DNA from: a virus
Virus record (IMG/VR): IMGVR_UViG_3300026078_000093
Coordinates: 1 to 22,708 of that record
DNA: 22,708 nucleotides
Reading direction: 5' to 3' (one strand)
In this document: piece by piece, positions 3,376-22,708 of the stretch
Layout: every line of letters starts with the position of its first letter
Numbering within the stretch: the stretch's first letter is position 1
Notes under the pieces: model-generated
Seen by the model: only the letters and a program-made list of their open reading frames with translations
Told to the model about the DNA's origin: nothing
Database searches by the model: none
Made by a program: the position numbers and the translations under genes

Positions 3376-3617
3376 CGCTGACCGTCGTACCATTGCGTAA
3401 TTCGCCGTCCCTTCAGGACATTCCTGCGCTATTGCGTAATCTCGCGGCCGAGATCGAAAGCGGCGAGACAGTGGCGCGATCAATGTTCATCGTCATTCCC
3501 AAGGAAGGTGACTACCCAGAACTGCGCGGTTGGGGCGATGTTGAAGGTGAGCGCCGGCCGATTGAACAACTGGCGCTTACCCAGCATTGGCTACTGAGCC
3601 GGCAGACCGCGCGATGA
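3372..3617 (+). CDS. Small hypothetical protein coupled to the large terminase
   Basis: 81 aa, taking ATG 3372 (ATGA overlap with the preceding stop) rather than the ATG at 3363, three codons upstream. It reads as a small mixed alpha/beta protein: residues about 16-32 (IPALLRNLAAEIESGET) form a helix, followed by a strand MFIVIPKE and a C-terminal helix. The 'LR..A..IE.G' plus 'V.i' pattern occurs in small proteins of unknown role encoded near terminases. It ends in an ATGA overlap with the large terminase start at 3614. No metal-binding or membrane features. Confidence 0.6.
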   Translation: MTLTVVPLRNSPSLQDIPALLRNLAAEIESGETVARSMFIVIPKEGDYPELRGWGDVEGERRPIEQLALTQHWLLSRQTAR

Positions 3618-5694: not shown

Positions 5695-5800
5695 CACCGC
5701 AGCGCTGATGGCGCGCTATGGAACGAAGCTCGCGCTAGCTGGCATGTCATCGCCGTCGACCCCGAATCCGTCGTCAAATCAATTCGTGGGTAAAGTCTGA
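5588..5800 (+). CDS. Small Gln-rich protein preceding the portal
   Basis: 70 aa from ATG 5588. The frame is open further upstream, but there it is the shadow of the preceding gene. The sequence is Gln-rich at the start (TIQQPADPNLAIQQQQAQQE), then helical with Thr and Ala, ending SSNQFVGKV. Such short Gln-rich proteins directly before the portal are common in podophages; their role is unknown. It overlaps the preceding gene by 107 bp out of phase and ends in a TGATG overlap with the portal start. Possibly a head-assembly or packaging accessory; nothing more specific can be supported. Confidence 0.6.
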   Translation: MQAKTIQQPADPNLAIQQQQAQQEQLKALQTQASGDTAALMARYGTKLALAGMSSPSTPNPSSNQFVGKV

Positions 5801-7398: not shown

Positions 7399-7751
7399 CC
7401 GTCGACGAAAAGGTCCTCAGTTTCACCGAACAGGAGACAAACGCAATCAAGGCGATTGCGCGTACCGACGATGGAGCCTTGCTGCATCGCTATTTGCGGC
7501 GGGTTTTGGAAGCGGTTATGGACCTTCAAGACGACGGTGCGTTGCGCCAACAGAACGGTCGCCGCAGTTTGGCACGAGACCTGATGAGGCTTATGGCCGA
7601 GGGAATTGATGACCGACGCGACAGCACCAACGACTCCATCCTCAGCCGACCCGGCGGTCCCGCCGCCGTCGCCCCCCGTCGCGGCGCCGGCCGCCGTATC
7701 ACCGCCGACACCCACGTCGCCGGATACGACGACCCCGACACCTCCCGCTAG
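7395..7751 (+). CDS. Small protein between portal and scaffold
   Basis: 118 aa, ATGA-coupled to the portal gene. The first 73 residues look like a folded helical protein (VLSFTEQETNAIKAIARTDD ... YLRRVLEAVMDLQDDGALRQ), with the 'DGALRQQNGRRSLA' form that recurs in small portal-adjacent proteins. The remaining 45 residues overlap the scaffold gene by 143 bp in another frame and are Arg/Gly/Asp-rich and unlike a domain, so they may be a run-on tail that arose by loss of an earlier stop. Role unknown; likely a minor head protein or assembly factor. Confidence is higher for the N-terminal part than for the whole length. Confidence 0.65.
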   Translation: MTVDEKVLSFTEQETNAIKAIARTDDGALLHRYLRRVLEAVMDLQDDGALRQQNGRRSLARDLMRLMAEGIDDRRDSTNDSILSRPGGPAAVAPRRGAGRRITADTHVAGYDDPDTSR

Positions 7752-8400
7752 CCCGGTCGCCGCGGCTCCGCCGGCCGATCGCCCCGCATGGCTGCCCGAG
7801 TCGTTCAAGGCGCCGGAAGAACTGGTCGAGAAATTCAACGAATATGCTACCCGCGTCGCCGCCGAGGACTCGCGCAAAGCGTCCTTGCCGCAAACGCCGG
7901 AAGCCTACGAGATCAAGCTGCCGGAAACATTCACGGCGCCCGAAGGCATCAAGGTCGATCTCAATCCGAACGACCCGCTCTACAAAATGGCACGCGAGAT
8001 GGCGCACGCCAAGGGCTGGTCGCAATCTGATTTTTCCGAAGCGCTCGGCGTTGTCGCCACCATGCGCGCTGGCGAAACTGCTGCCTATGAAGCCGCAAAG
8101 ACCGCAAATCTCGCGGCGCTCGGCGCCAAGGGGCCGGAGCGCATCGATGCGGTGACACGCTGGCTCATTGCCAATGGTTCGCCCGAAGAGGTCAAGCCGA
8201 TCATCGCCACGCTCGCCACATCAAATCACGTCACGTTTTTTGAGAAGATGATCGCGAAGCTGTCTTCACAGGGCGCGGCGAACTTCCGACGCGGTGGCGA
8301 GGATGTCGATACCGGCAAGGTCACGCCGGAGGTCTACGAAAAAATGTCCTACGGAGAAAAGAAGGCTTACGCCGAACGTATGAGCGGCAAAGCGGCCTGA
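7609..8400 (+). CDS. Capsid scaffolding protein
   Basis: 263 aa from ATG 7609 (GAGGGA at 7599-7604 is a good SD; a TTG at 7606 is also possible). The first roughly 60 residues are almost only Pro, Ala, Thr and Ser and must be disordered. Then comes a scaffold-like part: 'WLPESFKAPEELVEKFNEYA', 'PEAYEIKLPETFTAPEGIKV' and a long helical region (GWSQSDFSEALGVVATMRAG). 'P..Y.i..P' followed by helices is typical of podophage scaffolds. Scaffold proteins shape the prohead and leave before DNA packaging. The gene directly precedes the major capsid gene, which supports the call. Residues about 205-235 (LATSNHVTFFEKMIAKLSSQ) may form the C-terminal capsid-binding helix. Confidence 0.82.
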   Translation: MTDATAPTTPSSADPAVPPPSPPVAAPAAVSPPTPTSPDTTTPTPPASPVAAAPPADRPAWLPESFKAPEELVEKFNEYATRVAAEDSRKASLPQTPEAYEIKLPETFTAPEGIKVDLNPNDPLYKMAREMAHAKGWSQSDFSEALGVVATMRAGETAAYEAAKTANLAALGAKGPERIDAVTRWLIANGSPEEVKPIIATLATSNHVTFFEKMIAKLSSQGAANFRRGGEDVDTGKVTPEVYEKMSYGEKKAYAERMSGKAA

Positions 8401-8420: not shown

Positions 8421-9365
8421 ATGCCTGTCAATAACCTGATCACCGTCGCCGAATACGCAAAGTCGTTTGCGCAGGAAGATATCCGGCGTCCCGTCATCGA
8501 AATGTTCGCCAAATCGGTGGACTTTTTCGACGTACTGCCGTTTGAAGGCCTGAAAGGCTCGGTGTTCGTTTACTACCGCCAGGCTGTTCTACCGACCCCA
8601 CAATTCCGCGGCATCAACGAAGCGAGCTCGTCCGGCCACGGCACGATCACTCCGCTGCAGGAATCGACCGCGATCATCGATCACGACATTGACGTGGATC
8701 GCGCGATCATCGACCGCCACGGCCCTGAGCGTCGCAATTACGAAGAACAGATGGGCATCACCGCCTTCGGCCAGTTGTGGGCGACCACGCTGATCAAGGG
8801 CGATCAGTCCACCAACCGCCGCGTGTTCAACGGCCTGCAGAACCGTTGCAACAAGTACTCGCGCGACATCCACAATTCGGCCGCTTCCGGCGGCGCCGCG
8901 CTGTCGCTGGCGAATCTGGACACCGCGATCAACGCGGTGAACAACCCGACCCACATCCTCGCGCCCTACGCCTCCCGCCCGCTGTTCATCCAGGCAGCGC
9001 GCAATACCACGCTGTCCGGCTTCGTGATGCAGACCTGGGACCAGATCGGCACGCTCAAGATGAGCTACGCCGGGCTGCCGATCATGTGGGGATATCCGAA
9101 GGACGATCACCCTCCGATGCTGGACTTCACGGAAGTGGCTTCCGGCGGCGGTTCGGCCGTCACCGCCTCGCTCTACATCGCCTCTGTCGGCGAAGGAAAG
9201 CTGCGCGGCCTGCAGGTTCGCCCGATCGAAGCCCGTGACATCGGTCTGCTGCAGGACGGCAAGACCTATCGCACGCATTTGTCGTGGGACGTCGGCATGG
9301 TCGACGAACACAAATACTGCCTGGCCCGGCTTGATAGCTGGACCAACGCAGCCATCGTCGCCTGA
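8421..9365 (+). CDS. Major capsid protein
   Basis: 314 aa. It follows the scaffold gene and has the strongest ribosome binding site of the operon. The opening (AEYAKSFAQEDIRRPVIEMF, then 'SVDFFDVLPFEGL') and the later 'LPTPQFRGINEASSSGHGTI' are typical of HK97-fold capsid proteins of podophages such as the BPP-1 group: an N-terminal arm, then a 'D-f-f..lPF' turn and an 'R.iN' loop. 'DHDIDVDRAIIDRHGPERRN' marks the start of the helical P-domain, and the C-terminal domain holds 'GLPIMWGYPKDD'. No N-terminal protease delta domain is evident, as expected when a separate scaffold is used. The major building block of the shell. Exact capsid family not certain, role firm. Confidence 0.87.
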   Translation: MPVNNLITVAEYAKSFAQEDIRRPVIEMFAKSVDFFDVLPFEGLKGSVFVYYRQAVLPTPQFRGINEASSSGHGTITPLQESTAIIDHDIDVDRAIIDRHGPERRNYEEQMGITAFGQLWATTLIKGDQSTNRRVFNGLQNRCNKYSRDIHNSAASGGAALSLANLDTAINAVNNPTHILAPYASRPLFIQAARNTTLSGFVMQTWDQIGTLKMSYAGLPIMWGYPKDDHPPMLDFTEVASGGGSAVTASLYIASVGEGKLRGLQVRPIEARDIGLLQDGKTYRTHLSWDVGMVDEHKYCLARLDSWTNAAIVA

Positions 9366-10102: not shown

Positions 10103-10548
10103 GCGTCCGCATCCATCCGAAGTATATCGACCCTACCGACCATGTTCTTGTGTGGGACATCGGCCCGGTCAGGGTCGAAGCTCCGAAGGCCCCGGTCGAA
10201 CCCGTCGAAAGTAAGGATCTCAAGGGCGCCGATTTCGCGCTCGCAAAAATCCATTACGAAGATGCACTCGAACAATATCGCACCGACCTGCGTGCCTACG
10301 GTGAGGCTAAGAAGGCCTATACCGCGTGGCATCAGAACAACGGCGGCCCGATCAAGCTCAAGCAATGGTCGACCGATGCGGTTCATTCACTGACGGTCGA
10401 CCCTGAACGCTATTTCCTGGAACTGCCGAAAGGCCTCAAGCCCGGCAAGGCCCAGGCCGAAGCCGATCGCATCGCGGAAATGACTGAAGCGGAAATGCAG
10501 GAAGCGCGGGAGAAAGACCCGCAGTTTGGAAAAGGAACCGAACGATGA
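10099..10548 (+). CDS. Hypothetical phage structural-operon protein
   Basis: 149 aa from GTG 10099 (GTGA overlap). Residues about 45-78 form a helix (FALAKIHYEDALEQYRTDLR), followed by a short basic and aromatic part (AWHQNNGGPIKLKQW), then 'DPERYFLELPKGLKPGKAQA' and an acidic helical tail. No known domain. The last residues (FGKGTER) are encoded by the very bases that serve as the ribosome binding site of the next gene, so the end of this protein may be shaped by that need. Likely a minor virion or assembly protein; role not assignable. Confidence 0.65.
   Translation: MSVRIHPKYIDPTDHVLVWDIGPVRVEAPKAPVEPVESKDLKGADFALAKIHYEDALEQYRTDLRAYGEAKKAYTAWHQNNGGPIKLKQWSTDAVHSLTVDPERYFLELPKGLKPGKAQAEADRIAEMTEAEMQEAREKDPQFGKGTER
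10525..10544 (+). promoter_or_regulatory. Ribosome binding region of the exported-protein gene, near-copy of the capsid gene's
   Basis: AAGGA at 10532-10536 lies 8 nt before ATG 10545. Apart from one extra G here and one extra T in the other copy, the stretch TTTG...GAACGATG is the same as at 8401-8423. Unlike the capsid copy it lies inside the preceding reading frame. It implies strong translation of the signal-peptide protein. Confidence 0.55.
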
Positions 10549-11180
10549 ATCGCCTTTTAACCTCGCTGCTGGGCGCTACCCGAGCGCTTCTGATCGCCTC
10601 GCTGGTCGCCCTTCCGTTCAGCCTGCCAATACAGAAGGCAGAGGCGGCCGCGACAACCCAGACGCTGCACGCCTATCTGTGCGCACCCCGCCCCGTGGGT
10701 GCCGCCGCGGGCCCGCAGCGAGTCGTCAATACCTCGACCACGGCTGCTACGGCCTACACCCTCAACGGTCAGGGCTGCGCCCTCTTTGCGGTGGCCGACG
10801 TCGGCTTCTTCCTGTCGCAGGGCTTTACCTACGGCCCCTCGACCTTCGTGCTGACCCAGACCGCGATCACGGCGACCACGACGTCCTCGACATCGACCAT
10901 CACCTTGCCGGCCTATGCTTACATCACGGCAATCGTTCTGGAAGAGACCGCGGGCAACGCCATCACCGGCGGCGTCGATATCGGCGATTCCGGTTCGGCC
11001 ACTCGGTATGCCTCGGCAGTAGCACTCGGTGCCAATGGCATCGTGGCGGTGGCCGACTCGGCCCTGACCCGTGTTTTCGCAAACTCCGGTGTTCCCGTTG
11101 CCGATCAGGTGCTGGTCGCTTGCCACACCTCCTGTAACTCCGGCTCTATCAACATCACGATTCAGTACACCTATTACTGA
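10545..11180 (+). CDS. Exported beta-rich protein of the head operon (signal peptide)
   Basis: 211 aa, ATGA-coupled. Residues 1-34 are a clear Sec signal: Arg3 and Arg13, hydrophobic ALLIASLVALPFSLPI, then KAEA-A as cleavage site. The mature part is rich in Ala, Thr, Ser and Gly and beta-like; 'AYITAIVLEETAGNAITGGV' followed by 'DIGDSGSAT' and the final 'SINITIQYTY' look like small phage structural or head-fibre-type proteins, which normally lack a signal. Four cysteines (C46, C78, C193, C197) could form two disulfides outside the cytoplasm. It is the last gene before a strong terminator and has a ribosome binding site like that of the capsid gene. Either an exported phage protein acting at the envelope or a virion protein with a hydrophobic N-terminus; undecided. 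Confidence 0.75.
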   Translation: MNRLLTSLLGATRALLIASLVALPFSLPIQKAEAAATTQTLHAYLCAPRPVGAAAGPQRVVNTSTTAATAYTLNGQGCALFAVADVGFFLSQGFTYGPSTFVLTQTAITATTTSSTSTITLPAYAYITAIVLEETAGNAITGGVDIGDSGSATRYASAVALGANGIVAVADSALTRVFANSGVPVADQVLVACHTSCNSGSINITIQYTYY

Positions 11181-11230
11181 GGGAACGGTCTTCCCGATTT
11201 AATGGCCATTTGAGTGTCCTCCCAGACTTA

Positions 11231-11255
11231 AGCCGTCCTTCGGGGCGGCTTTTTT
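11231..11255 (+). terminator. Intrinsic terminator after the head gene block
   Basis: AGCCGTCC (11231-11238), loop TTCG, GGGCGGCT (11243-11250) form an 8-bp stem with one G-T wobble and a stable UUCG-type tetraloop, followed directly by a run of T (11250-11255). This is a textbook Rho-independent terminator. It divides the head operon from the tail genes starting at 11298. As no clear promoter fits into the 42 bp between, part of the transcription probably reads through. A second weak hairpin (GGGAA/TTCCC, 11181-11195) precedes it. Confidence 0.88.
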
Positions 11256-11297
11256 CGTGGTGCGTTGCGCCGACTTGTTGATGGCGGAAGGTGAGGC

Positions 11298-11981
11298 ATG
11301 GCAGCATTCGAATGGCCTTTATCGAAGCTCGAAATCATCAACTCCGCGCTGTCCCAGTGCGGAGATAATACAATCGCGGTTGCTGACGACGGTTCAGACG
11401 AATGGAATACCTGCTCGCCCGCCTATGAGCGCGCACTGGCCTATATGATCGAGTCCCATGGATGGGGGCAGGCAACCGACGTGCGAACGTTGCAGCCCGC
11501 CGCCAACGCCCCAGACGACGATCAATATGATACCGCCTACAACCTGCCCTCCGATCTGGTGCATCTGATCCTGGTGCGGATCGACGACCGGCCCTGCGTT
11601 TGGGATCTGCAGAACAACCAGCTTCTGGTTAACGCCCAAGGTGGTCCGCCGCCGCCATCACTGGCCCAGACGCCCGCCGTGGTCACGATCAAGGGTGTTT
11701 TCTCGACCAATTCAGATCCGACGTTTGCCACGCCGACCTTTGTGGTGGCACTGATTGCCTTCGTCATGTCCGGAATTTACCGCGGCCTGCACGAGGATGT
11801 CGGGCAGGCCGAGCGCATGTGGAATTCCGGCAAGGCTATGCTGCTCGAGGCGCAGGCCCGTCACGATATGCAGAAACCCAAACGATCGATGTTCAACTCG
11901 CGCATCACGGCCTCGCGCCGCATTCGCCGCCCGTGGCCGCCGGTCCCCGGTGGCTGGGGTGGGACGAACACGCCAGGCTAG
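11298..11981 (+). CDS. Tail tubular protein A-like adaptor (T7 gp11 type)
   Basis: 227 aa, close to the T7 gp11 length (196) with an added basic C-terminal tail. Family signs: 'LEIINSALSQCGDNTI' at residues 11-26, 'CSPAYERALAYMIESHGWGQ' (about 39-58) matching the 'Y......lL..h.W..A' pattern, 'YDTAYNLPSDLVHLILVRID' (about 77-96) matching 'y.Y.LP.D', and a helical end with 'AMLLEAQARHDM'. The adaptor ring joins the portal to the nozzle. The last 35 residues (Arg-, Pro-, Gly-rich) may be disordered. ATG 11298 is preceded by GGAAGGTGAGG. It opens the tail block, next to the nozzle gene as in T7. Confidence 0.85.
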   Translation: MAAFEWPLSKLEIINSALSQCGDNTIAVADDGSDEWNTCSPAYERALAYMIESHGWGQATDVRTLQPAANAPDDDQYDTAYNLPSDLVHLILVRIDDRPCVWDLQNNQLLVNAQGGPPPPSLAQTPAVVTIKGVFSTNSDPTFATPTFVVALIAFVMSGIYRGLHEDVGQAERMWNSGKAMLLEAQARHDMQKPKRSMFNSRITASRRIRRPWPPVPGGWGGTNTPG

Positions 11982-11990
11982 GGGTGGGCC

Positions 11991-14300
11991 ATGGCGCAGA
12001 AAATTCTCGGAGCCCAGCGCGACTTCTCGTTTGGCGAGGTCGACGTCGCCCTGAAACGGGCTGACGATCATCCCGCGCGCAAGGGCGGACTTCGCCAGAT
12101 GGCGAATGCCCGCATCCTGAATTCGGGTGGCCTGCAGGATCGCTCAGGACGCCGCGCGCTCTATCCAATCACGAATGGCGGCACGCGTACCGAGCGTTTT
12201 ACGATCTCGGCCGGTAATATCTTCGACATCCAGTTCGCAGTAGGCCGCCTCAAAATCATCGACAGCACCGGGACGACGGTCGGCAATTTCACGCTGCAGG
12301 GGAACGGTGCCGCGCTGCCGTGGGCCTCGAGCGCCGACATTCAGTCGATCGTCTACACGGTATTTGGCCTGGCGATCACGGTCACGTTCGGTCATTCCAT
12401 GCGCCCCCAGGTCATTACCTGGGACGGTGTGTCGACGTGGAGCATTGCCGACTATACCGAGTTGCTGATCGGCAACCAGAAGCGGACGCCGTTCTATCGG
12501 ATCAGCCCGCAGGGAATTGCAATCCAGCCATCTGCGCAGACCGGGGCTGGCATCACCATTGTTGCGTCGGCGCCTCTGTTCACGGCCTCATGGGTCGGCG
12601 CCCGCATCCGGTTCGTGTTTCGGCAGATTTTGATCACCGGCTATACCAATTCGACGCATGTCACCGCGACGGTGGAGGAATCGCTGCCCGGCAGCCAGGT
12701 GCTGACCTATGGTGTTGACCCTTCGACCAGTTTCAGCATCGGCGACGTCGTGATTGGTTCGGTGACCGGATCAAAGGGCGTTGTCACGGCCATCAATGCC
12801 GGCGCCAAGACGATTACAGTTCAACTGCTGACGACCAGTTCATCGTCAGCAACGTTTAATCCGGGCGCCGGTAGTCAGACCGTGGCTTTTACAACCGCCG
12901 ACACCGTCGCCGGACCAGGCGGAGGCCTGACGCCATCAAGCGTGGCTGCAATCGGAAATCCGCAATCGGTAACGATCTGGGACGATGAAGTGATGAACGA
13001 CTTTCGCGGCTATCCCGCGTCCTGTTTCAACGACCAGTTTCGCGTCGGCTTTTGCAATTTCCCATCTGTTCCTGGCGGGATCGGTTGGACGGCGATCAAT
13101 TCAACGACTGATTTCTATGCCAATGATGCGTCATCGCCTGACAATGCAATATTTGAGATCGCGCCAGGCAAGGTGCAGGTCTATTTCGTGGTGCCAGGGC
13201 CAGAGAGCAACGAGTTCGTGTTCTGCGACCGGCGCATTTATTACATCCCGATCTCGCCGACCAATCCGCTCAAACCGGGTAGCGTTGGGTTTCAGATACT
13301 GTCTGGGGATGGGGCCGCGCAAGTACAGCCTCGATTGGCGCAGGAAGCAATTCTTTACGCGAATGCCGGCGCAAGCAGCATGATGGCGGTGATCGCAACC
13401 GGCGCATATCTGCGCCCATTTAACACCAAAAATCTGAGCGATTACCATTTCCATCTATTCAACTCGATTCAGGCCATTGCTGCGCCATCGGCTGACGGGC
13501 AGTTCAACGAGCGCTATGCCTATGTGCTGAACGGCAACGGCTCCATTGCGGTGGGAAAATACGACACGCAAAGCCTCGCCGGCAGTTCGTCGGTGATTGG
13601 TTGGGGCCCGTGGTCTGGCTCTGGCACTGTCTCGTGGATTGCGGCGCATCAGGCCGATGTGCTGTTCACGACGAGCTATTTCGCCTCGGGCGTGGTCGAG
13701 GCTTTGGACGATAGTCAGTATCTGGATTGCGCGTTTCCGGTTAATGCTGCTCCGACAGCATTTGCGCCACCAGGCGGCAAGGGACCGCTCTGGTTCATTC
13801 CGTCGCAGTCGGTTGCGCTGATGGATCAGACCACGCGATTCATGGGCGTCTACCAGATCGATTCCGATGGCTTTATCGTGCCGCAGTTCAATGGCGGTGA
13901 AGATCTGACGGCGATGTCGCTGGTTGCCGGACAGCCATGGACCATGATTGTCGAGCCGTTCTGTCCTGACGCTTCTCCTGGCAGCGATGTGGGCCAGCGC
14001 ATGTTCAAGCGGCGCGTGTCGCGGTTTGCTGCCTATGTGATCCATTCCACCGGCTTCCTGATGGCGCGGTTATTCTCGGGGCCGCTGACGCCGACGTCGC
14101 CCGCGCTTGGAACGGTCATGAACCAGCGGCGCATGACGGCCTGGAATCAGGGCGACGATGCTACCTTGCCTCCGCCGCAGCGCGAGACCGCAGAACGGTG
14201 GCGGCCCCTGGGGCGGGCGTTCGACCCGCGCGTGGCGATCATCAAGGATACCCCCGGGCCGTTACTGATTGCAGAGCTCGGAATGGAGGCGTCGATATGA
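11991..14300 (+). CDS. Tail tubular protein B-like nozzle (T7 gp12 type)
   Basis: 769 aa, near the T7 gp12 size (794). The N-terminus has the family signature: 'RDFSFGEVDVALKRADDHPA' and 'LRQMANARILNSGGLQDRSG' (residues about 10-55), matching 'nf.gGe.s..l..R.d...y..g...l.N......G...rR.G'. The rest is beta-rich, as expected for a propeller-like nozzle. Residues about 240-300 (SIGDVVIGSVTGSKGVVTAI and the Ser/Thr-rich part after it) look like an inserted small beta domain found in several nozzle proteins. Six copies would close the short tail and hold fibres. It follows the adaptor gene by 9 bp and overlaps the next as ATGA. Confidence 0.85.
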   Translation: MAQKILGAQRDFSFGEVDVALKRADDHPARKGGLRQMANARILNSGGLQDRSGRRALYPITNGGTRTERFTISAGNIFDIQFAVGRLKIIDSTGTTVGNFTLQGNGAALPWASSADIQSIVYTVFGLAITVTFGHSMRPQVITWDGVSTWSIADYTELLIGNQKRTPFYRISPQGIAIQPSAQTGAGITIVASAPLFTASWVGARIRFVFRQILITGYTNSTHVTATVEESLPGSQVLTYGVDPSTSFSIGDVVIGSVTGSKGVVTAINAGAKTITVQLLTTSSSSATFNPGAGSQTVAFTTADTVAGPGGGLTPSSVAAIGNPQSVTIWDDEVMNDFRGYPASCFNDQFRVGFCNFPSVPGGIGWTAINSTTDFYANDASSPDNAIFEIAPGKVQVYFVVPGPESNEFVFCDRRIYYIPISPTNPLKPGSVGFQILSGDGAAQVQPRLAQEAILYANAGASSMMAVIATGAYLRPFNTKNLSDYHFHLFNSIQAIAAPSADGQFNERYAYVLNGNGSIAVGKYDTQSLAGSSSVIGWGPWSGSGTVSWIAAHQADVLFTTSYFASGVVEALDDSQYLDCAFPVNAAPTAFAPPGGKGPLWFIPSQSVALMDQTTRFMGVYQIDSDGFIVPQFNGGEDLTAMSLVAGQPWTMIVEPFCPDASPGSDVGQRMFKRRVSRFAAYVIHSTGFLMARLFSGPLTPTSPALGTVMNQRRMTAWNQGDDATLPPPQRETAERWRPLGRAFDPRVAIIKDTPGPLLIAELGMEASI

Positions 14301-14773
14301 ACTCGGGATCATCTGGCGGCGGCGCGTCGGGCGGATCGATCGCAAGCATCGGACTGCAGACCTATGCCACCCTGCTCAAGGCGCAGGGTGTGGCGACAGC
14401 GGACCAGTATCAGGCCGACCGGCTGGAAAAGGCCGCGCAATATGGCGAGGTGAAAGCCGCCCAGACCAGCGCGCAGATGACTCGTAGTCTGACCACCACA
14501 CTTGGCAATATCGACGCTGTGCGCGCTGCGGCAAATGCCGATCCATCGTCGCCCACCGGCGCCGCTTTCCGCGACAATCAGGAAATGATCGGAAACGAAC
14601 AGCGCGGCATCGCGGTCGGCAATATTGAAGCCCAGGTGGCGCAGGATCGCGCCGATGCGGCCTATTACCGGCAGGCCTCGTCGGATGCGATGCTATCCGG
14701 GTATATCTCCGCCGGAGCAAATGCCTTTTCATCGATTGAGGGGACCGTAACCAAAATGTTCACGGGGGCCTGA
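14297..14773 (+). CDS. Internal virion (ejection) protein, T7 gp14-like
   Basis: 158 aa from ATG 14297 (ATGA overlap with the nozzle gene); the frame is open upstream to 14198, but that part is a shadow. The start is Gly/Ser-rich, then an almost wholly helical, Ala/Gln-rich body (LLKAQGVATADQYQADRLEK; NEQRGIAVGNIEAQVAQDRA). The pattern 'A..Y.A......A.......A......T......G......A.......G..f......m' fits the small ejection protein gp14 of T7-like phages, which enters the outer membrane during DNA delivery. 'NADPSSPTGAAFRDNQEMIG' in the middle is typical. The order small-large-large ejection protein is as in T7. Confidence 0.78.
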   Translation: MNSGSSGGGASGGSIASIGLQTYATLLKAQGVATADQYQADRLEKAAQYGEVKAAQTSAQMTRSLTTTLGNIDAVRAAANADPSSPTGAAFRDNQEMIGNEQRGIAVGNIEAQVAQDRADAAYYRQASSDAMLSGYISAGANAFSSIEGTVTKMFTGA

Positions 14774-14775
14774 CA

Positions 14776-17700
14776 ATGGTTGATCTTCCGACCGTCGGCA
14801 CCCAGGGCCAGACCGCCGTCGCCCCGCATTCCGCTATCACACCCGGCGTAATTGAGCAGAGCGCCACCATGCGCGCGGATGCGCTCGGCAAGGTGGCAGA
14901 TGACCTGATGGATGTCTCGACGGACCTTGCCAAAAAGCAGGCCGCCGATGACCTGATGAACCAGAAGGTTACCCGCGATGCCGACGGTAACGTGGTGGTG
15001 CAGAACCCCGCCACCGCGCCGCTGATCTTTGGCAAGGCCGGCGAGGCCTATTCGGATGCCGTAAAGGTCGGGACGCTGGCGCAGCACTCGAATTCCCTGT
15101 CGATGGATTTTGCCGATCTTCATCAGAAGTATCCGACCGATCCTGCTGCCTTCAAGGCAGCAGCCGAGGCGCACCTTGCTTTAACGGCTCAGAAGGTTAC
15201 GGGTCCGCTCGGCGAGGCAGTCCAGGCGCAGGGCAATCAGCTTCTGACGCAGCACTATAATTCGATCACATCGACTGCCGCGTCGAACGATCTCGAAAAT
15301 CAGAAGAAGTCGATCACCTCTCAGATCGAGGATCAGAAGAACACCGCCATAGCTCTTGCGCGACAAAACGGCGTGGATTCCCCGGAGTTCAAGCAGGCGG
15401 TCGAAAAGATGAATCTTTCCTATGACGCCTTGGGCAGCAATCCGCTGTTCAAGATGCCACAGGACCAGATCGAATTTGAAAAGAAGAATACCGCGGCCCT
15501 GCTGCAAGGCGAGGCCCTTGTCGCTCATGTCGACGACAGCTTCACCAAACGCGGCAAGGCGGAAGCCCAGAAGGTTCTTGACCAGAACATTTTGCAAAAC
15601 CCAAACCTTCGCGAGGTCGACCGGTCGCGGCTTTATACGCAGGGCCTGTCGCGACTTGCCTATCTGACTAGTGACGCCAAGGCGACGATCGACGCGAACC
15701 GCCAGATCACCACCGAACTGGAAGGTGGCTTGTCGAAGGGGACAGTCAAGGCCGAGGACCCTGCGGTCGGGCTCGCAATCCAGCGCGCTCGTGATATTGG
15801 CGACACTGAAGGCGCGCAGCGGATAACGGCAGCGGCGGCGGTCCAGCAGCATTTGCGTGGCGTCAATTCGCTGCCGGATGCGATTAGAAGTGAGGCGCTT
15901 GGCGTGCCCGGGGGGGCAGTCAATAAATCTCTCCCGCCCGAGGCGCGCGGGCTCCTCGATACCATCGCCAAAACGGAATCTGCCGGCCGGTACAATGTTC
16001 GATATGGCGACAAGACGTTTCAGGATTTTGCGGATCACCCGCGTATGCCTGAGCCGATCACCTCTGGCCCCGATGTCGGAAAGACATCCTCGGCGGCTGG
16101 GCGATATCAGTTCATCGCGCCGACATGGGATGCGCAGAAAACCAAACTAGGCCTGAAGGATTTCTCGCCTGAAAATCAGGATGCGGCAGCGTGGGATCTG
16201 GCGCAGACGACCTACAAGCAAAAGACCGGAAAGGATTTGCTGACGACGCTGAAGTCCGGCGATACGGCCGACGTTCTGCCGGCACTGGCTGGTCAGTGGT
16301 CGTCCCTTCCAGGCGGCCGTCAACCAGCAAAAGAGTTCGGCGGCTTCACGCCGGAACAGGTGCATCAGAATCCATTTCTGATTTCGGCCTATGTCCGCAC
16401 GCTCGCGGCCGACCCCGAACTGCGTGTCCAATCGGCCAAGCAGACAGCGGCAGCGGTGGGCAAGGCGCTCGATAACGGCATTTTGCCGCCGCCAGAGGCG
16501 ATCGCCGAGATCAATCAGGCGGCAAGCCTCTATCCCGAAAAAATGGGCTCGACGGCTGATGAGATCAACGGCCGGCTACAAGGCCAGAAGATCGCGTCAC
16601 TTCCGCAGGAACAGCAGGCGCAGGTCGAGGAAGCCTACCGCCGGTCAGCCGATGGCCAGGACATCCATACCATCAACATTGCTTCCGCCGCCCTTAAGCA
16701 GGTGCAGGATTCCAACAAGAATATGGTGGATCATCCCTATGAGGAAGCGGCGCGCCGGGGATGGGCGCAGCCCGCGGCCCCGATCGACCCAGCCCAGCCC
16801 GGTGATATTCCGGTGGCGCTGGCGCAGCGCGCCGCGCTCAGCGCGCGCATTGGCACCTTGAACCATACGCCGCCGCCGCCGCTCGTCGACAACGACGAAA
16901 TGCCGAAGCTGCAGGCCGCATTGGAGGGTCCTCAAGGAGCGGCGCTGCTCGGCGGGATCGCCCAAAGCCTCAAACCAGAGGAAATGAACACGCTTCTGTC
17001 CGACAAGGGCTTTGTAAATAGCGTGACCAGCATGATGTCCAGCAAGGACCCGAACCGGATGTCCTCGGCAATGTCGGTGGTCGACAGCGTTTGGCGGGTC
17101 AACGCCGCGAATGCAGAAGGCAAATTCGGCTCGGCCGCGATCACGAAACTGCAGGCATGGCAGGCACTCAAGGGCAGTTTCAATGGCCCTGAATTAGCCG
17201 AAAAGCTGAATATGTCCGACGACCCTTCGACGGCGAAGGCGCGTGTGGAAGCCAAGACGGCGGCGGAAGCCGAGACGAAATCGATGACGCCTTCCGACAT
17301 GGCCTACAAGCTCGGTTCATCGTGGGGCATCCCGATCCTATCGCGGGTCGCCAACATGGTGACCGGAGCTACGCCAGCGGTCCCGTTCGACAGCATCACC
17401 GGCGGGGCATTGGTGGCCGATTACAAGGCCACCTATACCGCGCTGCGGTCCTATGGCGTCGATGCTGACAAGGCGTCCGATCTCGCTGTGCAGCGGCTGG
17501 GCTCGACCTGGGGAGTATCCCAGACGGCCGGCAACCAAGTCATGCGCAATCCGCCCGAGCGGTCCTATCCGGCCATTGGCGGCAACCACGACTGGATGCA
17601 GACCAATCTCACGAAATTCGTTGAGGGAAAGGTCGGACCGCAATTCACGGACGGCATGCGCTCAATCGAGGCGGGCATCGGGGTGGCCGGACGAAACCAG

Positions 17701-17940
17701 AACTGGTCCGTCGCCGGCATGATCGCCGACAAGCAGACCGAGGCGGAAATTGCCGCCGGCCGGCCGCCGTCCTATCAGGTCGCGGTCAAGAAGGCCGACG
17801 GTACGCTGGACATCATCCCGAGCCGGATTGCATTCGATCCTTCGAACCATATCGCCGAATATGGCGCCGGGCTCGAACAACGGCGGCAGAACGTCGAAGC
17901 CAGCCGTAACAGTATCATGAGCGGGATGCCGCAGCCATGA
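14776..17940 (+). CDS. Ejection protein with lambda R-like (GH104) lytic transglycosylase domain
   Basis: 1054 aa, in the place of T7 gp15. Residues 1-385 are helical and Gln/Lys/Ala-rich. Residues about 390-525 match phage lambda endolysin R: 'LLDTIAKTESAGRYNVRYGD' with the likely catalytic Glu401 (lambda Glu19), 'FQDFADHPRMP', 'AAGRYQFIAPTWDAQKTKLG', 'LKDFSPENQDAAAW' and 'WSSLPGG'. The domain would cut the peptidoglycan glycan strand to let the ejection channel pass. Residues 530-1054 are helical with no recognised domain. There is no signal peptide, as expected for a virion protein. In T7 the transglycosylase is of another family and sits at the N-terminus of gp16. The gene ends in an ATGA overlap with the next. 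Confidence 0.85.
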   Translation: MVDLPTVGTQGQTAVAPHSAITPGVIEQSATMRADALGKVADDLMDVSTDLAKKQAADDLMNQKVTRDADGNVVVQNPATAPLIFGKAGEAYSDAVKVGTLAQHSNSLSMDFADLHQKYPTDPAAFKAAAEAHLALTAQKVTGPLGEAVQAQGNQLLTQHYNSITSTAASNDLENQKKSITSQIEDQKNTAIALARQNGVDSPEFKQAVEKMNLSYDALGSNPLFKMPQDQIEFEKKNTAALLQGEALVAHVDDSFTKRGKAEAQKVLDQNILQNPNLREVDRSRLYTQGLSRLAYLTSDAKATIDANRQITTELEGGLSKGTVKAEDPAVGLAIQRARDIGDTEGAQRITAAAAVQQHLRGVNSLPDAIRSEALGVPGGAVNKSLPPEARGLLDTIAKTESAGRYNVRYGDKTFQDFADHPRMPEPITSGPDVGKTSSAAGRYQFIAPTWDAQKTKLGLKDFSPENQDAAAWDLAQTTYKQKTGKDLLTTLKSGDTADVLPALAGQWSSLPGGRQPAKEFGGFTPEQVHQNPFLISAYVRTLAADPELRVQSAKQTAAAVGKALDNGILPPPEAIAEINQAASLYPEKMGSTADEINGRLQGQKIASLPQEQQAQVEEAYRRSADGQDIHTINIASAALKQVQDSNKNMVDHPYEEAARRGWAQPAAPIDPAQPGDIPVALAQRAALSARIGTLNHTPPPPLVDNDEMPKLQAALEGPQGAALLGGIAQSLKPEEMNTLLSDKGFVNSVTSMMSSKDPNRMSSAMSVVDSVWRVNAANAEGKFGSAAITKLQAWQALKGSFNGPELAEKLNMSDDPSTAKARVEAKTAAEAETKSMTPSDMAYKLGSSWGIPILSRVANMVTGATPAVPFDSITGGALVADYKATYTALRSYGVDADKASDLAVQRLGSTWGVSQTAGNQVMRNPPERSYPAIGGNHDWMQTNLTKFVEGKVGPQFTDGMRSIEAGIGVAGRNQNWSVAGMIADKQTEAEIAAGRPPSYQVAVKKADGTLDIIPSRIAFDPSNHIAEYGAGLEQRRQNVEASRNSIMSGMPQP

Positions 17941-20900
17941 CCGCAATCGACGTCGCCCCGGACCCGGCCTTCGGACTTCGAACGGAGCAGGGTGTGCCGC
18001 CACAGGCCCAGCCACCGATCAATGATGGCGGCGAGGCGGTATTCGGCGCGGCCTTCCGGCAGTCGAACAGCGTGGTCTCGGCGATCCAGTATATGCGGAA
18101 TTCCGGCTCGTTCACTCCGCAGCCGGATTACAACCCGCTGGACGACATCAAATCGTGGAAGCAGCCGGACTATTTTCTCGAACACGGCGACAAGTTCATC
18201 GGCTCTCAGTCGCCGGCGGAAACGCAGTCGATCAAGGCGCAGATCGATACCGAGACGGCTGACCAAAAGCTCCTGGCTGCCAATGGCAAGATCGGATTCA
18301 TCGCCCAGACCATAGCGGGCACGCTGGACCCGACCATGCTGCTGCCTGGCGGCGTCGCGTTGGATGCGGCCAAGGGTGGGCTGACATTCACGAAAGCGGC
18401 GGTCGAGCTCGGCAAGGCGGGGCTGATGCAGACCACGGCCCAGGAGGCGCTACTCCACGCCAGCCAGCAAACCCGGACCTTCCAGGATAGCGCACTGAAC
18501 GTCGCCAGCGGCACGCTGCTGACGGCGCTGATCGGAGGGGGTGCCGCGTCATTGCTCGGCGCTGGCGAGCGGGCAGCCATGGAAACCGCGCTGCACGCCG
18601 ACCGGTCCGAGATGAACGCGCACGCGGGCAACCCGTCGACCGGAGAAGCCCCGCCAACGGCCAGAGAAGCCCATGGAGAGTCGCCCGCTCCTGCGGCCGC
18701 CAATGTCAACGAGTCGGCCGGGGCCGCTCAGGCCGCCTCTGTAGGCGCAGCGGCGGCCGATACCCGCAAGATCGAACTGGTCGACTTCGGGCTCAACCAG
18801 ATACCTGGCGTCCGCAAGGTGGTGGAAACGACCTCGCCGATGCAGCGGCTGTTCGGTGCCGAGAGCGTTACCGTGCGGCGGACGGCCGCTGATCTGGCCG
18901 AAACCTCGCTGCTGACCAAGGAAAACGTTGAGGGCAAGGTGACGACCGCGGGCCCGGCGGTTGATCGTGAAGCCCGGCTGCACATCCATCAGGGCCAAGT
19001 CGCGGTCGGGGACGAGCTTTCCCGCCTATTCTCGGAATATCGGTTCGGCGAGCAAAAGACGACGCCGAGAGCGCGCGCCGGATTCGAGGACATAACCGGC
19101 CGAGCCCCGGACGGCAAAATGTCGTTTGACGAATTCAAGGAGGCGGTGACCGAGGCCGGCCGCAACGGCGACGTGCACGAGAATCCTCAGGTGCAGATGG
19201 CCGCGCAGACCGTACGCAACAAGATTTTCGAGCCATGGAAGAAACGTGCCATCGAGGCCGGACTGCTGCCCGAGGACGTGAGCGTCAAGACCGCCGACAG
19301 CTATATGATGCGCCTCTACAATAAGCAGGCGATCGCGGCCAAACGTCCGGAATTTGTGAGCCGGGTGACCGACTGGCTGCAAGCCGACCAGGCCGAGAAG
19401 GCCCGCGGTCAGGAGAAGATCGGCCTCTATCAGGGCGCGCTCGAATCCCACCGGGCGACGATCGCCAAATACGAGGACCGGATCGCCAAGCTGTCCGTGG
19501 ATGCGGACGTCATTGCCGCCCGGCAGGAGGAAACGACCCGGCTGAACAAGGCGGCGAGCCGCCGCGCGGAGACGCTGCGGACCCGCGATCAGGAAAATCT
19601 GCCGCTTCAAAATGCAAAGGGTGGCGCGGTATTCGAGACGCTGGCGCGCAACCGCGGCAACCTGCTGGCCGACCGCGCCTCGGCGAAACTGGCCGAGATC
19701 GAAAGCCTGCAGGAAAAGCTCGCAACGGAAATCCAGAGCCATGATCAGATGCGTGGCAAGATCGAGGAGGAAATCGCCAAATGGGAAGGCAAATCCGCCA
19801 AGGAGGCCAAAGCCGCGCTGAAAGCCCGCGCCGAAGCCGAGAAGGCGCGCGCCGAACAGAAGGCCGCTGGAACCTATAAGGGCAAGGATGAGCGCCTGTC
19901 CGCCGCCGACAAGGCCGTGGACAAGGCCGTCAAACGCATCCTCGAATCCGACCGCGGCATGGAACGACAGGAATTGGAAAGCCGGGCCCAGGAGATCACA
20001 GACCGCATCATCGGTTCGCCGGACGGCCGTCTGCCCTATGACCTTGGCATGGAGCACGGGCAGGGTGGCGGAGGCGGTGGCGAGCAGCCGCGCGGCTCTC
20101 TGGCGGCCCGGGAGTTCAATATCCCGGACAAGACCATTGCCGATTTTCTCGAAAACGATATCGAGCACATCGTGGCTTCGCATCTGCGAACCATCGTGCC
20201 TGACGTGCTTTTGACTGAGAAATTCGGCGACACGCGCATGTCGGAAGCGTTCCGCAAGATCAACGATGAATATGCCGCGCTGGTTTCTGAGGCCAAGACC
20301 GAAGGCGCGAGGACTAAACTGGAAAAGGAGCGGCAGCGGGCGATCGACGATCTTGCGGCGGTGCGGGATCGGATCAGGGGCATTTACGGTATTTCAAGCG
20401 ACGCGCCGATGCGCAATGCCGCACGCGCGATGAACGTGCTCAAGAATTACAATGTGCTGACTTCGATGGGGTCGGCAGCGTTGTCCTCTCTTCCGGACAT
20501 GGCCGGATCGGTCCTGCGCCACGGCCTGACCTCGACCTTCAATGACGCCTGGTCACCGTTCTTCTCGTTTCTAACCCGCCAGTCCGACGCTTGGCAGGAA
20601 GCAGGGCGGCAATACCGCGCCATGGGGATTGCCGTGGAATCGGTGCTTGCCTCGCGCCACCACGCCCTGACCGACACGCTGGACACGTACCATCCGCAAA
20701 GCCGGGTCGAGCGGACGATGCAATGGGCGACGGGCAAGTTCCAGTTTGTCAACTTGCTCGCGCCGTGGACCGACTTTGCCAAGATCAATGCTTCGATGGT
20801 GGCCGGTTCGGAGATTTTGCGCGCGGTGAAGGCTGCGGAGGCGGGAACGCTATCGGCGCGCCAACTCCGCAACCTCGGCGAATCCGGGATTGAACCGCAC

Positions 20901-21650
20901 ATGGCCGCTCGGATCGCCAGGGCGTTCGAGGAGGGCGGCGAGATCAGGGACGGCGTGCATCTGCCAAATACCGCCGATTGGACTGACAAAGAGGCGCGGC
21001 GGGTGTTCGAGGGCGCGGTGGCCCGGGACGCCGATATTGCCGTGGTCACGCCAGGGCAAGAAAAGCCGCTGTGGATGAGCCATCCACTGCTATCGGTACT
21101 GGGCCAGTTCAAGAGCTTCACCGCGGCGGCAACCGAGCGCGTGCTGATCTCAAACCTTCAGCGCCGGGACGCCCAGGTGCTGCAGGGCATGATCTTCTCG
21201 ATGGGCCTCGGGATGCTGTCTTACAAACTGAACAGCCTTACCGGAGGGCAGCCCGTCAGCGACAAGCCGCAGGACTGGATCAAGGAAGCGGTGTCGCGAG
21301 GCAACCTTCTCGGTTGGTTTGAGGAAGCGAACGCGCTGGCATCGAAGGCAACACGGGGTGGGGTGGACGTCTACCGCATGATCGGTGCCGACAAGCCGCT
21401 GTCCCGATATGCCTCCCGGTCGGCGATGGATCAGATCCTCGGCCCGACCGCCGGGAAGATCGGCGGAATCCTGTCGGTGGCGTCGGCCGCTTCAAAGCCG
21501 TCGGAATGGAACGAGGCGGATTCCAAGGCGCTGCGGCGGCTCGTTGCCGGACAAAACACCTTCTACCTTCGTCGGATGTTCGATCAGGTCGAGCAATCCG
21601 GCAATAATGCCTTTGGCATCGAAATGAAGAATAAGCCCGAGAACCGCTGA
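17937..21650 (+). CDS. Large ejection protein (T7 gp16-like, without transglycosylase domain)
   Basis: 1237 aa, ATGA-coupled. T7 gp16 is 1318 aa and begins with a transglycosylase; here that domain is absent and is found in the preceding protein. Hydrophobic parts at about residues 117-142 (IGFIAQTIAGTLDPTMLLPG) and 189-210 (GTLLTALIGGGAASLLGAG) may insert into the membrane. Residues about 220-285 are Ala/Pro-rich and flexible. About 490-690 is a long charged coiled coil (Glu/Lys/Ala-rich). The C-terminal third has 'NVLTSMGSAALSSLPDMAGS' (about 838) and 'GMIFSMGLGMLSYKL' (about 1083), a pattern I recognise from gp16-type internal virion proteins. It should form the inner-membrane and periplasmic part of the DNA channel. 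Confidence 0.8.
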   Translation: MTAIDVAPDPAFGLRTEQGVPPQAQPPINDGGEAVFGAAFRQSNSVVSAIQYMRNSGSFTPQPDYNPLDDIKSWKQPDYFLEHGDKFIGSQSPAETQSIKAQIDTETADQKLLAANGKIGFIAQTIAGTLDPTMLLPGGVALDAAKGGLTFTKAAVELGKAGLMQTTAQEALLHASQQTRTFQDSALNVASGTLLTALIGGGAASLLGAGERAAMETALHADRSEMNAHAGNPSTGEAPPTAREAHGESPAPAAANVNESAGAAQAASVGAAAADTRKIELVDFGLNQIPGVRKVVETTSPMQRLFGAESVTVRRTAADLAETSLLTKENVEGKVTTAGPAVDREARLHIHQGQVAVGDELSRLFSEYRFGEQKTTPRARAGFEDITGRAPDGKMSFDEFKEAVTEAGRNGDVHENPQVQMAAQTVRNKIFEPWKKRAIEAGLLPEDVSVKTADSYMMRLYNKQAIAAKRPEFVSRVTDWLQADQAEKARGQEKIGLYQGALESHRATIAKYEDRIAKLSVDADVIAARQEETTRLNKAASRRAETLRTRDQENLPLQNAKGGAVFETLARNRGNLLADRASAKLAEIESLQEKLATEIQSHDQMRGKIEEEIAKWEGKSAKEAKAALKARAEAEKARAEQKAAGTYKGKDERLSAADKAVDKAVKRILESDRGMERQELESRAQEITDRIIGSPDGRLPYDLGMEHGQGGGGGGEQPRGSLAAREFNIPDKTIADFLENDIEHIVASHLRTIVPDVLLTEKFGDTRMSEAFRKINDEYAALVSEAKTEGARTKLEKERQRAIDDLAAVRDRIRGIYGISSDAPMRNAARAMNVLKNYNVLTSMGSAALSSLPDMAGSVLRHGLTSTFNDAWSPFFSFLTRQSDAWQEAGRQYRAMGIAVESVLASRHHALTDTLDTYHPQSRVERTMQWATGKFQFVNLLAPWTDFAKINASMVAGSEILRAVKAAEAGTLSARQLRNLGESGIEPHMAARIARAFEEGGEIRDGVHLPNTADWTDKEARRVFEGAVARDADIAVVTPGQEKPLWMSHPLLSVLGQFKSFTAAATERVLISNLQRRDAQVLQGMIFSMGLGMLSYKLNSLTGGQPVSDKPQDWIKEAVSRGNLLGWFEEANALASKATRGGVDVYRMIGADKPLSRYASRSAMDQILGPTAGKIGGILSVASAASKPSEWNEADSKALRRLVAGQNTFYLRRMFDQVEQSGNNAFGIEMKNKPENR

Positions 21651-21711
21651 GGTGCGTTGCGACACGTTCCTGTCCGCCACACCCTGCCGGCGGATCACAG
21701 GGACAGCCACC

Positions 21712-22068
21712 ATGATGAAACGCCTCTTCGCCGCCAGTCTTTTGCTCGTGCTGTCGTGCCTCGGGGCGATGGCCTCCACCTGCAATGTCACCGAATTTCG
21801 GCTTTATGCTCCGAGTGGGGTCCAGGTCGCCGATCTGGATGCGCTGGTGACCGACCAGTCTCCAATCACCACTTCGGCTTCATCCGCTCAATCCGCCGCC
21901 TTTTCCGGCGATGCCCAGATGATCCAGATTTCCTGCGACACCCAATCGGCGATGGCTTACGGCACGAGCCCAACAGCCACCACAAGCAACATGACCATCC
22001 CGGCCGGCTTGCTCGTCTACTACAAGGTCACAGGCGGCAAGAAGGTCGCCTTCATTCTGAGGCCTTGA
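21712..22068 (+). CDS. Small exported protein (signal peptide) after the ejection genes
   Basis: 118 aa from ATG 21712 (AGGGA at 21699-21703; the frame is open further upstream, without a good site). MMKRLFAASLLLVLSCLGAMA is a short, classic signal with AMA-S as cleavage site; C16 in LSC is only a poor lipobox. The mature part is about 97 aa of strands with Ser/Thr/Ala, carrying two cysteines (C24, C75) that could pair. 'SAQSAAFSGDAQMIQISCDT' and 'YGTSPTATTSNMTIPAGLLV' match a well-known form of small phage virion-accessory protein ('...fg..PtAt.s...mpag...y..v..G.kva.i'), which is usually signal-less. TGATG overlap with the next gene. Function unknown; envelope or virion surface. Confidence 0.75.
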   Translation: MMKRLFAASLLLVLSCLGAMASTCNVTEFRLYAPSGVQVADLDALVTDQSPITTSASSAQSAAFSGDAQMIQISCDTQSAMAYGTSPTATTSNMTIPAGLLVYYKVTGGKKVAFILRP

Positions 22069-22708
22069 TGATGCGGCGCCGCAATCTTCTTAGCTGGGTT
22101 GCAGCCCTCGCGGCGCTTGTAACTATCGCGGCTTACACCGCACTAGGCCAGCCGGTAGCCGCTCTCGGACTCGGCGAACTAGGAGCAGGGTTTGGCAGGT
22201 CCGGCGCCATTGCGGGAGTGCGCGCAGGGGACTTCCGGTATCCGTCGTTCCCCTACACGACGCTGGCCGATTTCCGCACGACGGCGGACATCCAGAACAA
22301 TTTTATCGGGAGTGCGGCCGACGTTGCCGACCCGGACAGTCCCTATGGGTCGACCTCTATTCAGGAGACGTTCAACGGCGGCACGAGCACGCTTGTCTCG
22401 AAAACGATCTTGTCGACCCCGGTGGACGTCACCAACGGGATGATCCAATGGACGTTCAAGCCTGAAAACGCAATCTTACCGACAAGCTCGCCTCTCACCA
22501 CCTTCAATATCCGTCTTTATTCGGCAGGTACGCCAGCCTCCCCAAGCGCGAACTACCATCAAGCCTTTTCGGCCACATGGCTGAACACCGCGTCGACCGC
22601 CGTCACCGGATCAAATGGGCGCTGGCAATCGCATGGCGTTCCCACAGGTCAATTTGTTATCGGTGGCGGCACCGGGGCCGACCTTACGCAGATCAAATAC
22701 GCCCTCAT
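22068..22708 (+). CDS. Partial gene: exported or tail-surface protein with Tat-like N-terminus (3' end outside window)
   Basis: Open from ATG 22068 (or 22071) to the window edge, 213 codons without a stop. ATG 22068 overlaps the preceding stop as in the rest of the operon. The N-terminus MMRRRNLLSW has twin arginines followed by N-L-L, fitting the Tat pattern RR-x-phi-phi, then a moderately hydrophobic stretch (VAALAALVTIAAYTAL) and an Ala-rich end. From about residue 60 on the protein is beta-rich: 'SIQETFNGGTSTLVSKTILS', 'IQWTFKPENA', 'GRWQSHGVPTGQFVIGGGTG'. This resembles the N-terminal jelly-roll part of phage-encoded carbohydrate-active or tailspike-like proteins; a polysaccharide deacetylase or SGNH-type domain could follow but is not in view. 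Catalytic type cannot be told. Confidence 0.7.
   Translation, partial: MMRRRNLLSWVAALAALVTIAAYTALGQPVAALGLGELGAGFGRSGAIAGVRAGDFRYPSFPYTTLADFRTTADIQNNFIGSAADVADPDSPYGSTSIQETFNGGTSTLVSKTILSTPVDVTNGMIQWTFKPENAILPTSSPLTTFNIRLYSAGTPASPSANYHQAFSATWLNTASTAVTGSNGRWQSHGVPTGQFVIGGGTGADLTQIKYAL

Follow-up and report, generated by a model that had tools for sequence, protein, structure and literature searches.

Why should a short-tailed phage place genes for exported proteins inside the operon that builds its virion? The window analysed here, the entire linear IMG/VR record IMGVR_UViG_3300026078_000093 (22,708 bases), covers part of the genome of a T7-type podovirus, and three of its genes raise this question: A (10545..11180), B (21712..22068) and C (22068..22708, cut by the contig end), all of them, like every feature given below with window coordinates, on the + strand. 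Judging from the sequences of the window and its relatives, this phage group appears to export its host-binding proteins, namely fibres, small adhesins and sugar-acting enzymes. We put at roughly 0.55 the probability that the three proteins are parts of an adsorption module that would be exported, oxidised once in the periplasm and attached to the tails at lysis.

Export signals of A, B and C

Each of the three open reading frames (ORFs) carries an export signal at its start. The 211-residue precursor encoded by A begins with a predicted Sec signal (10545..10646, residues 1-34) composed of a positive n-region and a long hydrophobic core, with cleavage predicted past residue 34 (AEA/AAT); the 118-residue precursor of B has a predicted Sec signal of 21 residues (21712..21774, cleavage AMA/STC); and the signal predicted for C (22068..22163, residues 1-32) has a twin-arginine-like (Tat-like) n-region, RRRNLL. 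As to the starts, the ATG of A at 10545 and the stop codon of the gene before it share bases (ATGA), an in-frame stop 24 bases upstream in the 99%-identical locus L015 fixes that of B at 21712, and C shares the final base of the B stop codon. Signals were called with a home-made score (cut-off >=4) calibrated on 98 E. coli K-12 genes, among which 8/10 exported, 11/21 membrane and 1/67 cytosolic genes pass; A scores 4.4, B 5.3 and C 4.9. Because 11 of the 21 membrane genes pass, the score by itself cannot split signals from anchors. We nevertheless read these segments as signals, since the 15 A homologues keep an AxA-type site and since signals diverge faster than mature parts (pairwise identity in the A family about 44% and about 56%, respectively, a rougher figure because some split points were misplaced).

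Homologues of A came from viral contigs (13) and from a contig found with B (one). All 15 A-family sequences, at 37-99% identity, keep the positive n-region, the hydrophobic core and an alanine-rich end, with AEA/A, AHA/A, ANA/A and AQA/A as cleavage-end variants; signal length varies from about 22 to 39 residues, and the mature parts align closely, with C46 and C78 invariant. There is no lipobox in A, whose signal ends AEA/A; B does present S15-C16, but that cysteine is absent from its G766 and G029 homologues. Neither A nor B has a C-terminal hydrophobic segment, Pfam and PHROG searches matched no lysis family in A, B or C, and no sequence matches of A or B were found in cultured phages.

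Across related contigs, 41% and 48% of the ORFs in the two adsorption regions bear a signal, compared with 1% of core virion ORFs and 7% elsewhere, and this regional enrichment rules out chance occurrence. An earlier note on the window, made from its sequence alone, had proposed that the three signals are genuine (two Sec, one Tat-like) and that three together are unlikely to be chance; conservation across divergent homologues bears out the one claim and the enrichment the other. That reading missed the fact that the adsorption module as a whole is concerned, because the fibre gene lies past the window end.

The first of the two regions is the gap between the head genes and the gene for tail tube protein A (TTPA). 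It holds A alone in the window, G009 and L002, and A with up to eight further signal-bearing ORFs in G003, G004, G006, G001, G007, G005 and G031. In the window, a hairpin followed by a T-run, read from the sequence as a terminator-like element of the intrinsic type (11232..11255), sits in this gap immediately 3' of A, where relatives hold the additional genes. The second region follows the gp16-like gene; in G009 it consists of B, a GDSL esterase with a Tat-like signal (PF13472, 9e-10) and a signal-bearing fibre of 827 residues. From this gene order, and because the window ends inside C, the fibre of the window is expected just past the contig end.

A signal-bearing tail fibre

When viral contigs were searched with the mature N-domain of the fibre, the signal being left out, a signal was found in 44/44 loci; of the two search patterns, one lay close to the mature N-terminus and might be biased towards this subgroup, which does not apply to the other. 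An AxA-type site is present in 34/34 fibres checked, and among 34 sequences pairwise identity is 45.6% in the signals and 61.7% in the mature N-domain. The G005 fibre has a twin-arginine-like signal (SRRRFLP) where the others have a Sec-type one, which suggests selection for export as such. In the relatives the gene lies directly downstream of the gp16-like gene, except in G007, where it has moved into the A cluster.

An AlphaFold2 model of the mature N-domain (predicted local distance difference test, pLDDT, 75) was compared with the PDB by Foldseek. The top matches were podovirus tail-fibre N-termini, those of LME-1 (9efk, E 9e-4) and T7 gp17 (7ey9, 7boz), followed by HRP29, Kp9, Kp7, P-SCSP1u and Carin 1 (the list includes 8es4 and 7y1c). 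Given the consistency of this list, the modelled domain folds like the docking domain of T7 gp17; direct profile matches to T7 gp17 or PDB sequences were not significant, and only the fold comparison linked them. The fibre can thus be assigned to a known kind, the T7-type fibre, because both fold and position match: it shares with T7 gp17 the place right after gp16 and the fold of the N-domain. It differs in its export signal ahead of the docking domain and in its cysteines, of which T7 gp17 has 3 and the fibres of the relatives 6-20, mostly in even numbers. The proposal that virion parts are added outside the cell gains support from this tail-docking domain directly behind the signal.

Signal-less orthologues also occur after gp16, namely L128 of G295 (482 residues, 0 cysteines) and the fibre of Microcystis phage Mwe-JY08 (980 residues, 3 cysteines). 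A close relative of L128, L132 (481 residues, 0 cysteines), is called a tail fibre by PHROGs, and profile comparison joins the signal-less fibres to the signal-bearing group at 98.5-98.7%. Within the modules of G009, G001, G014 and G016 no signal-less fibre candidate was found. A cytoplasmic form of the fibre made from an internal start was considered and rejected: a GTG at the mature N-terminus is missing from about half of the 44 loci and is therefore not a conserved second start.

Cysteine parity

Signal-bearing proteins would fold in an oxidising compartment, so their cysteines should pair and come in even numbers. The mature parts contain 4 cysteines in A, 2 in B and none in C over its available part. 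Even numbers are found in 35/37 non-redundant complete fibres (range 6-20; p = 1e-8). The variable parts of the fibres fall into 30 clusters without clear similarity, and 28 of the 30 representatives are even (p = 9e-7). In the adsorption regions of related contigs, 76/81 signal-bearing ORFs (94%) are even, compared with 23/52 of those without a signal in these regions, 52/123 in the core virion set and 53/133 among the remaining ORFs. Reduced to one representative per homology cluster, the figures are 27/32 (p = 1e-4) and, for the signal-less ORFs, 16/34 (Fisher p = 0.002). Cysteine density is 1.7 per 100 residues in signal-bearing proteins and 0.44 in core virion proteins. Parity plays no part in the signal score and is therefore an independent check on it. 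The disulfides that had been proposed from the even cysteine numbers of A and B thus gain independent support from an even-cysteine excess that is strong and confined to signal-bearing proteins.

Genes A, B and C and a second podovirus lineage

The model of A (pLDDT 76) is similar to small jelly-roll proteins from the capsids of Pam1 and GP4 and to an R4C baseplate protein; against the capsid proteins 7eel_H (Pam1) and 8h89_J (GP4) E is 2e-4 and 6e-4, with template modelling (TM) scores of only 0.35-0.49. In BFVD the model resembles viral tail-fibre and structural proteins. The C-terminal ~100 residues of A recur as the last domain of fibre-like proteins without a signal, in a Mesorhizobium loti prophage (643 residues) and on a metagenomic contig (593 residues), and again behind a signal in Acidisphaera sp. 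S103. From the Pam1 and GP4 capsid proteins, to which its model is similar in fold, A differs by its export signal. A part as jelly-roll capsid cement would agree with this fold, but the end module of A also terminates prophage tail fibres. Most likely, A serves as an accessory adhesin or as a decoration.

A 27-base pattern from the window end matched three contigs (L150-L152) of a second lineage, whose capsid is related to that of pelagiphage HTVC010P (33-42%). The mature domain of C (22222..22708) is common to this HTVC010P-type lineage at 94% DNA identity. The full-length relative in G806 has 503 residues, and over the shared mature stretch the 503-residue C protein of the three contigs has the same amino acids as that of the window, bar the junction. 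At 22222 there is a sharp recombination boundary, upstream of which the signals are unrelated. Since the mature part is shared and the signals are not, the domain has moved between lineages, each supplying its own signal. The second lineage has the same layout, with signal-bearing proteins of 138 and 503 residues and, in the fibre position after gp16, one of 770 residues, containing 2, 2 and 12 cysteines, respectively. Among the tail-region proteins of cultured HTVC010P that were tested, none has a signal. Pfam, PHROG and PDB sequence searches with C gave nothing convincing; visual inspection of the full-length relative suggested a NodB-like deacetylase motif (IIRMDDGYKDA), which was not confirmed.

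Proposed assembly at lysis and alternative explanations

According to the mechanism that we propose, the fibre, the small accessory jelly-roll proteins and the carbohydrate-acting proteins would be made as Sec (sometimes Tat-like) precursors, which late in infection would pass the inner membrane, lose their signal peptide and fold with disulfides in the periplasm; the capsid, tail tube and ejection proteins, being signal-less, would remain cytoplasmic. Lysis would mix both pools, and the fibre would then dock on the tail via its T7-gp17-like N-domain, joined at the same moment by A and B, which are probably accessory adhesins or decorations. Preformed spikes or fibres of other phages are known to attach to completed particles in extracts, which makes docking at lysis plausible in chemical terms. 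What the sequences show directly are the signals and their conservation, the even cysteines, the docking-domain fold and the synteny; they strongly support export and disulfides, whereas docking after lysis is an inference. A broader proposition seems to us evenly balanced: a tailed phage would finish its virion outside the cytoplasm, its whole adsorption apparatus being a disulfide-bonded product of the periplasm that meets the tails no earlier than lysis, and this route would be shared by two or more podovirus lineages as well as by satellite-like elements.

Several observations weigh against assembly at lysis. The known T7-type tails acquire their fibres in the cytoplasm, the window's own fibre gene is outside the contig, and the TM-scores of the fibre N-domain matches are modest (0.3-0.5). 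In G766 (L142, reversed 14413-17460) a C-like GDSL protein (6 cysteines) and a spike-like protein (13 cysteines) lack signals, this pair directly following a signal-bearing B homologue, and G021 and G022 have additional signal-less candidates of 583-645 residues. Among the meanings offered by the earlier note, virion parts added after lysis are the best supported, uncleaved anchors are disfavoured, and coating of the host envelope remains the main rival. In the latter case, the exported proteins would bind surface receptors of the host, either on the periplasmic side or outside, and thereby, like Llp of T5, stop superinfection or the sticking of progeny to debris, and their presence in the virion would not be needed. 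Such receptor masking, which we hold to be possible but clearly the less probable explanation, would agree with the binding modules that exported and tail proteins share (an insert in tail protein B, TTPB, of G006 resembles the products of G006 23566 and 25128), with the occurrence of A's domain at prophage fibre tips, and with the exported protein similar to an Omp25-type barrel that several genomes encode past the fibre. The fibre, however, retains right behind its signal a tail-docking domain that a mask does not need; moreover, several genomes have no other fibre, and a conserved lipobox or anchor is absent.

The same docking domain would be left unexplained if the exported proteins were freely secreted enzymes and adhesins clearing exopolysaccharide round the cell as it lyses, the fibre forming a case of its own. 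The GDSL esterase of G009 and an arabinofuranosidase-B-like domain in G005 (PF09206) speak for this idea, but in the majority of exported ORFs no enzyme domain was recognised and A and B are small, and we consider it unlikely. N-terminal membrane anchors that stay uncleaved are more improbable still: the score does let half of the E. coli membrane proteins through, but the AxA-type sites of the fibres and the alanine-rich sites of all A homologues would not then persist. Least credible is an artefact of prediction or of wrong start codons; the signals were indeed called with a home-made score, but the starts are backed by upstream stops or stop-start overlaps, the signals are conserved over 44 contigs, and cysteine parity is an independent property.

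Satellite-like elements

A signal-bearing fibre is also found in integrase-bearing elements of ~9-13 kb on four contigs: G792 (C1 612000-671999; L139-L141, reversed 28301-38521), G387 (L148, 8578-17760), G028 (L092/L093) and G015 (L091). They have no genes for large terminase, portal or capsid and carry TerS-like genes beside the fibre; two hold a scaffold homologue. The G792 element encodes an integrase (PF00589), an AAA_25 protein (PF13481), a homologue of T7-type scaffolds (PF05396, 8e-7), two TerS-like proteins and the fibre, and the G015 element also carries TTPB. Known satellites redirect packaging with such genes, and a fibre next to them fits a component of the particle better than a mask. 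The four elements are possibly phage satellites with their own exported fibre; they may instead be decayed prophages.

Relation to known systems

Tailed phages are taken to complete their particles in the cytoplasm. To our knowledge, the exported phage proteins are endolysins, spanins, superinfection-exclusion lipoproteins and the coat proteins of filamentous phages, and we know of no tailed phage that exports its tail fibres. In open-access texts we found exported endolysins and no exported tail fibres. The nearest precedent in principle is pIII of filamentous phages, a Sec-exported, disulfide-bonded adsorption protein that is held in the membrane and assembled during extrusion; the likeness is confined to the export step (signal, even cysteines), as A and B have no C-terminal anchor and the present group has tail and lysis genes. 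Llp of T5 and Cor are exported superinfection-exclusion lipoproteins, Llp acting on receptors; an action on receptors is conceivable here too, but there is no conserved lipobox, the docking domain is kept and the genes lie among virion genes. The endolysin Lys44 of fOg44, signal-arrest-release (SAR) endolysins and Ms6 LysA use the host Sec route (PMC6116005), as the present proteins would, but they are lysis enzymes, whereas the present proteins belong to adsorption. Mwe-JY08 has an orthologous fibre N-domain, but its fibre is signal-less with an odd cysteine number.

If confirmed, this export route would be the first of its kind among tailed phages. Fibres could then exploit disulfides and periplasmic folding, and within one lysate the virions of one genome could take up fibres encoded by a different genome, a point of importance for mixed infections and for satellites. 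Exported fibres would be missed by any search for receptor-binding proteins in which genes with a signal peptide are filtered out, and the even-cysteine signature offers a simple finder of such modules in other genomes.

Gene context and further observations

The window contains a T7-type virion module with portal, capsid, tail and gp14-like proteins, each matching a PHROG family, and with lysozyme-bearing gp15-like and gp16-like proteins. The large terminase (3587..5182) was assigned by position and by conservation in relatives; it is followed by the portal or head-tail adaptor (5800..7398, phrog_332), a scaffold-like protein (7606..8400) whose homologue in the G792 element matches PF05396, and the major capsid protein (8421..9365, phrog_212). 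Past A lie the gp11-like TTPA (11298..11981, phrog_394) and the gp12-like TTPB (11991..14300, phrog_376), both without a signal, the gp14-like internal virion protein (14297..14773, phrog_418), and the gp15-like (14776..17940, with a lysozyme-type domain) and gp16-like (17937..21650) ejection proteins, each with 0 cysteines; the exported fibre region comes next in relatives. Signals are absent from the proteins of the head, the tail tube and the ejection apparatus. Among cultured phages, Mwe-JY08 is the closest relative (capsid 51%, TTPB 32% identity); only 2 TTPB matches turned up among 50,697 phage records, which makes this an essentially uncultured group.

The exported proteins past the fibre resemble by eye the outer membrane barrels of Omp25/31 type of Hyphomicrobiales and could alter the host surface (in flipped coordinates, G006 42299-43120, G004 41761-42543, G027 38577-39374, and G005 37656 and 84875). 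In the same kind of coordinates, G003 16946-19183 encodes a TTPA with an N-terminal glycosidase-like domain and G006 29442-32366 a TTPB with a lectin-like insert resembling exported proteins of the same genome. G005 (L037-L041, 86.9 kb) combines structural modules of two podovirus types, each with signal-bearing, even-cysteine ORFs, and represents either tandem prophages or a chimeric assembly. Finally, L159 (MW202898, 35733-38486) encodes, beside a signal-less tail fibre, a signal-scoring protein of 917 residues with 6 cysteines and an annotated caprin-2 domain, suggesting that exported adhesins may occur in further podoviruses.

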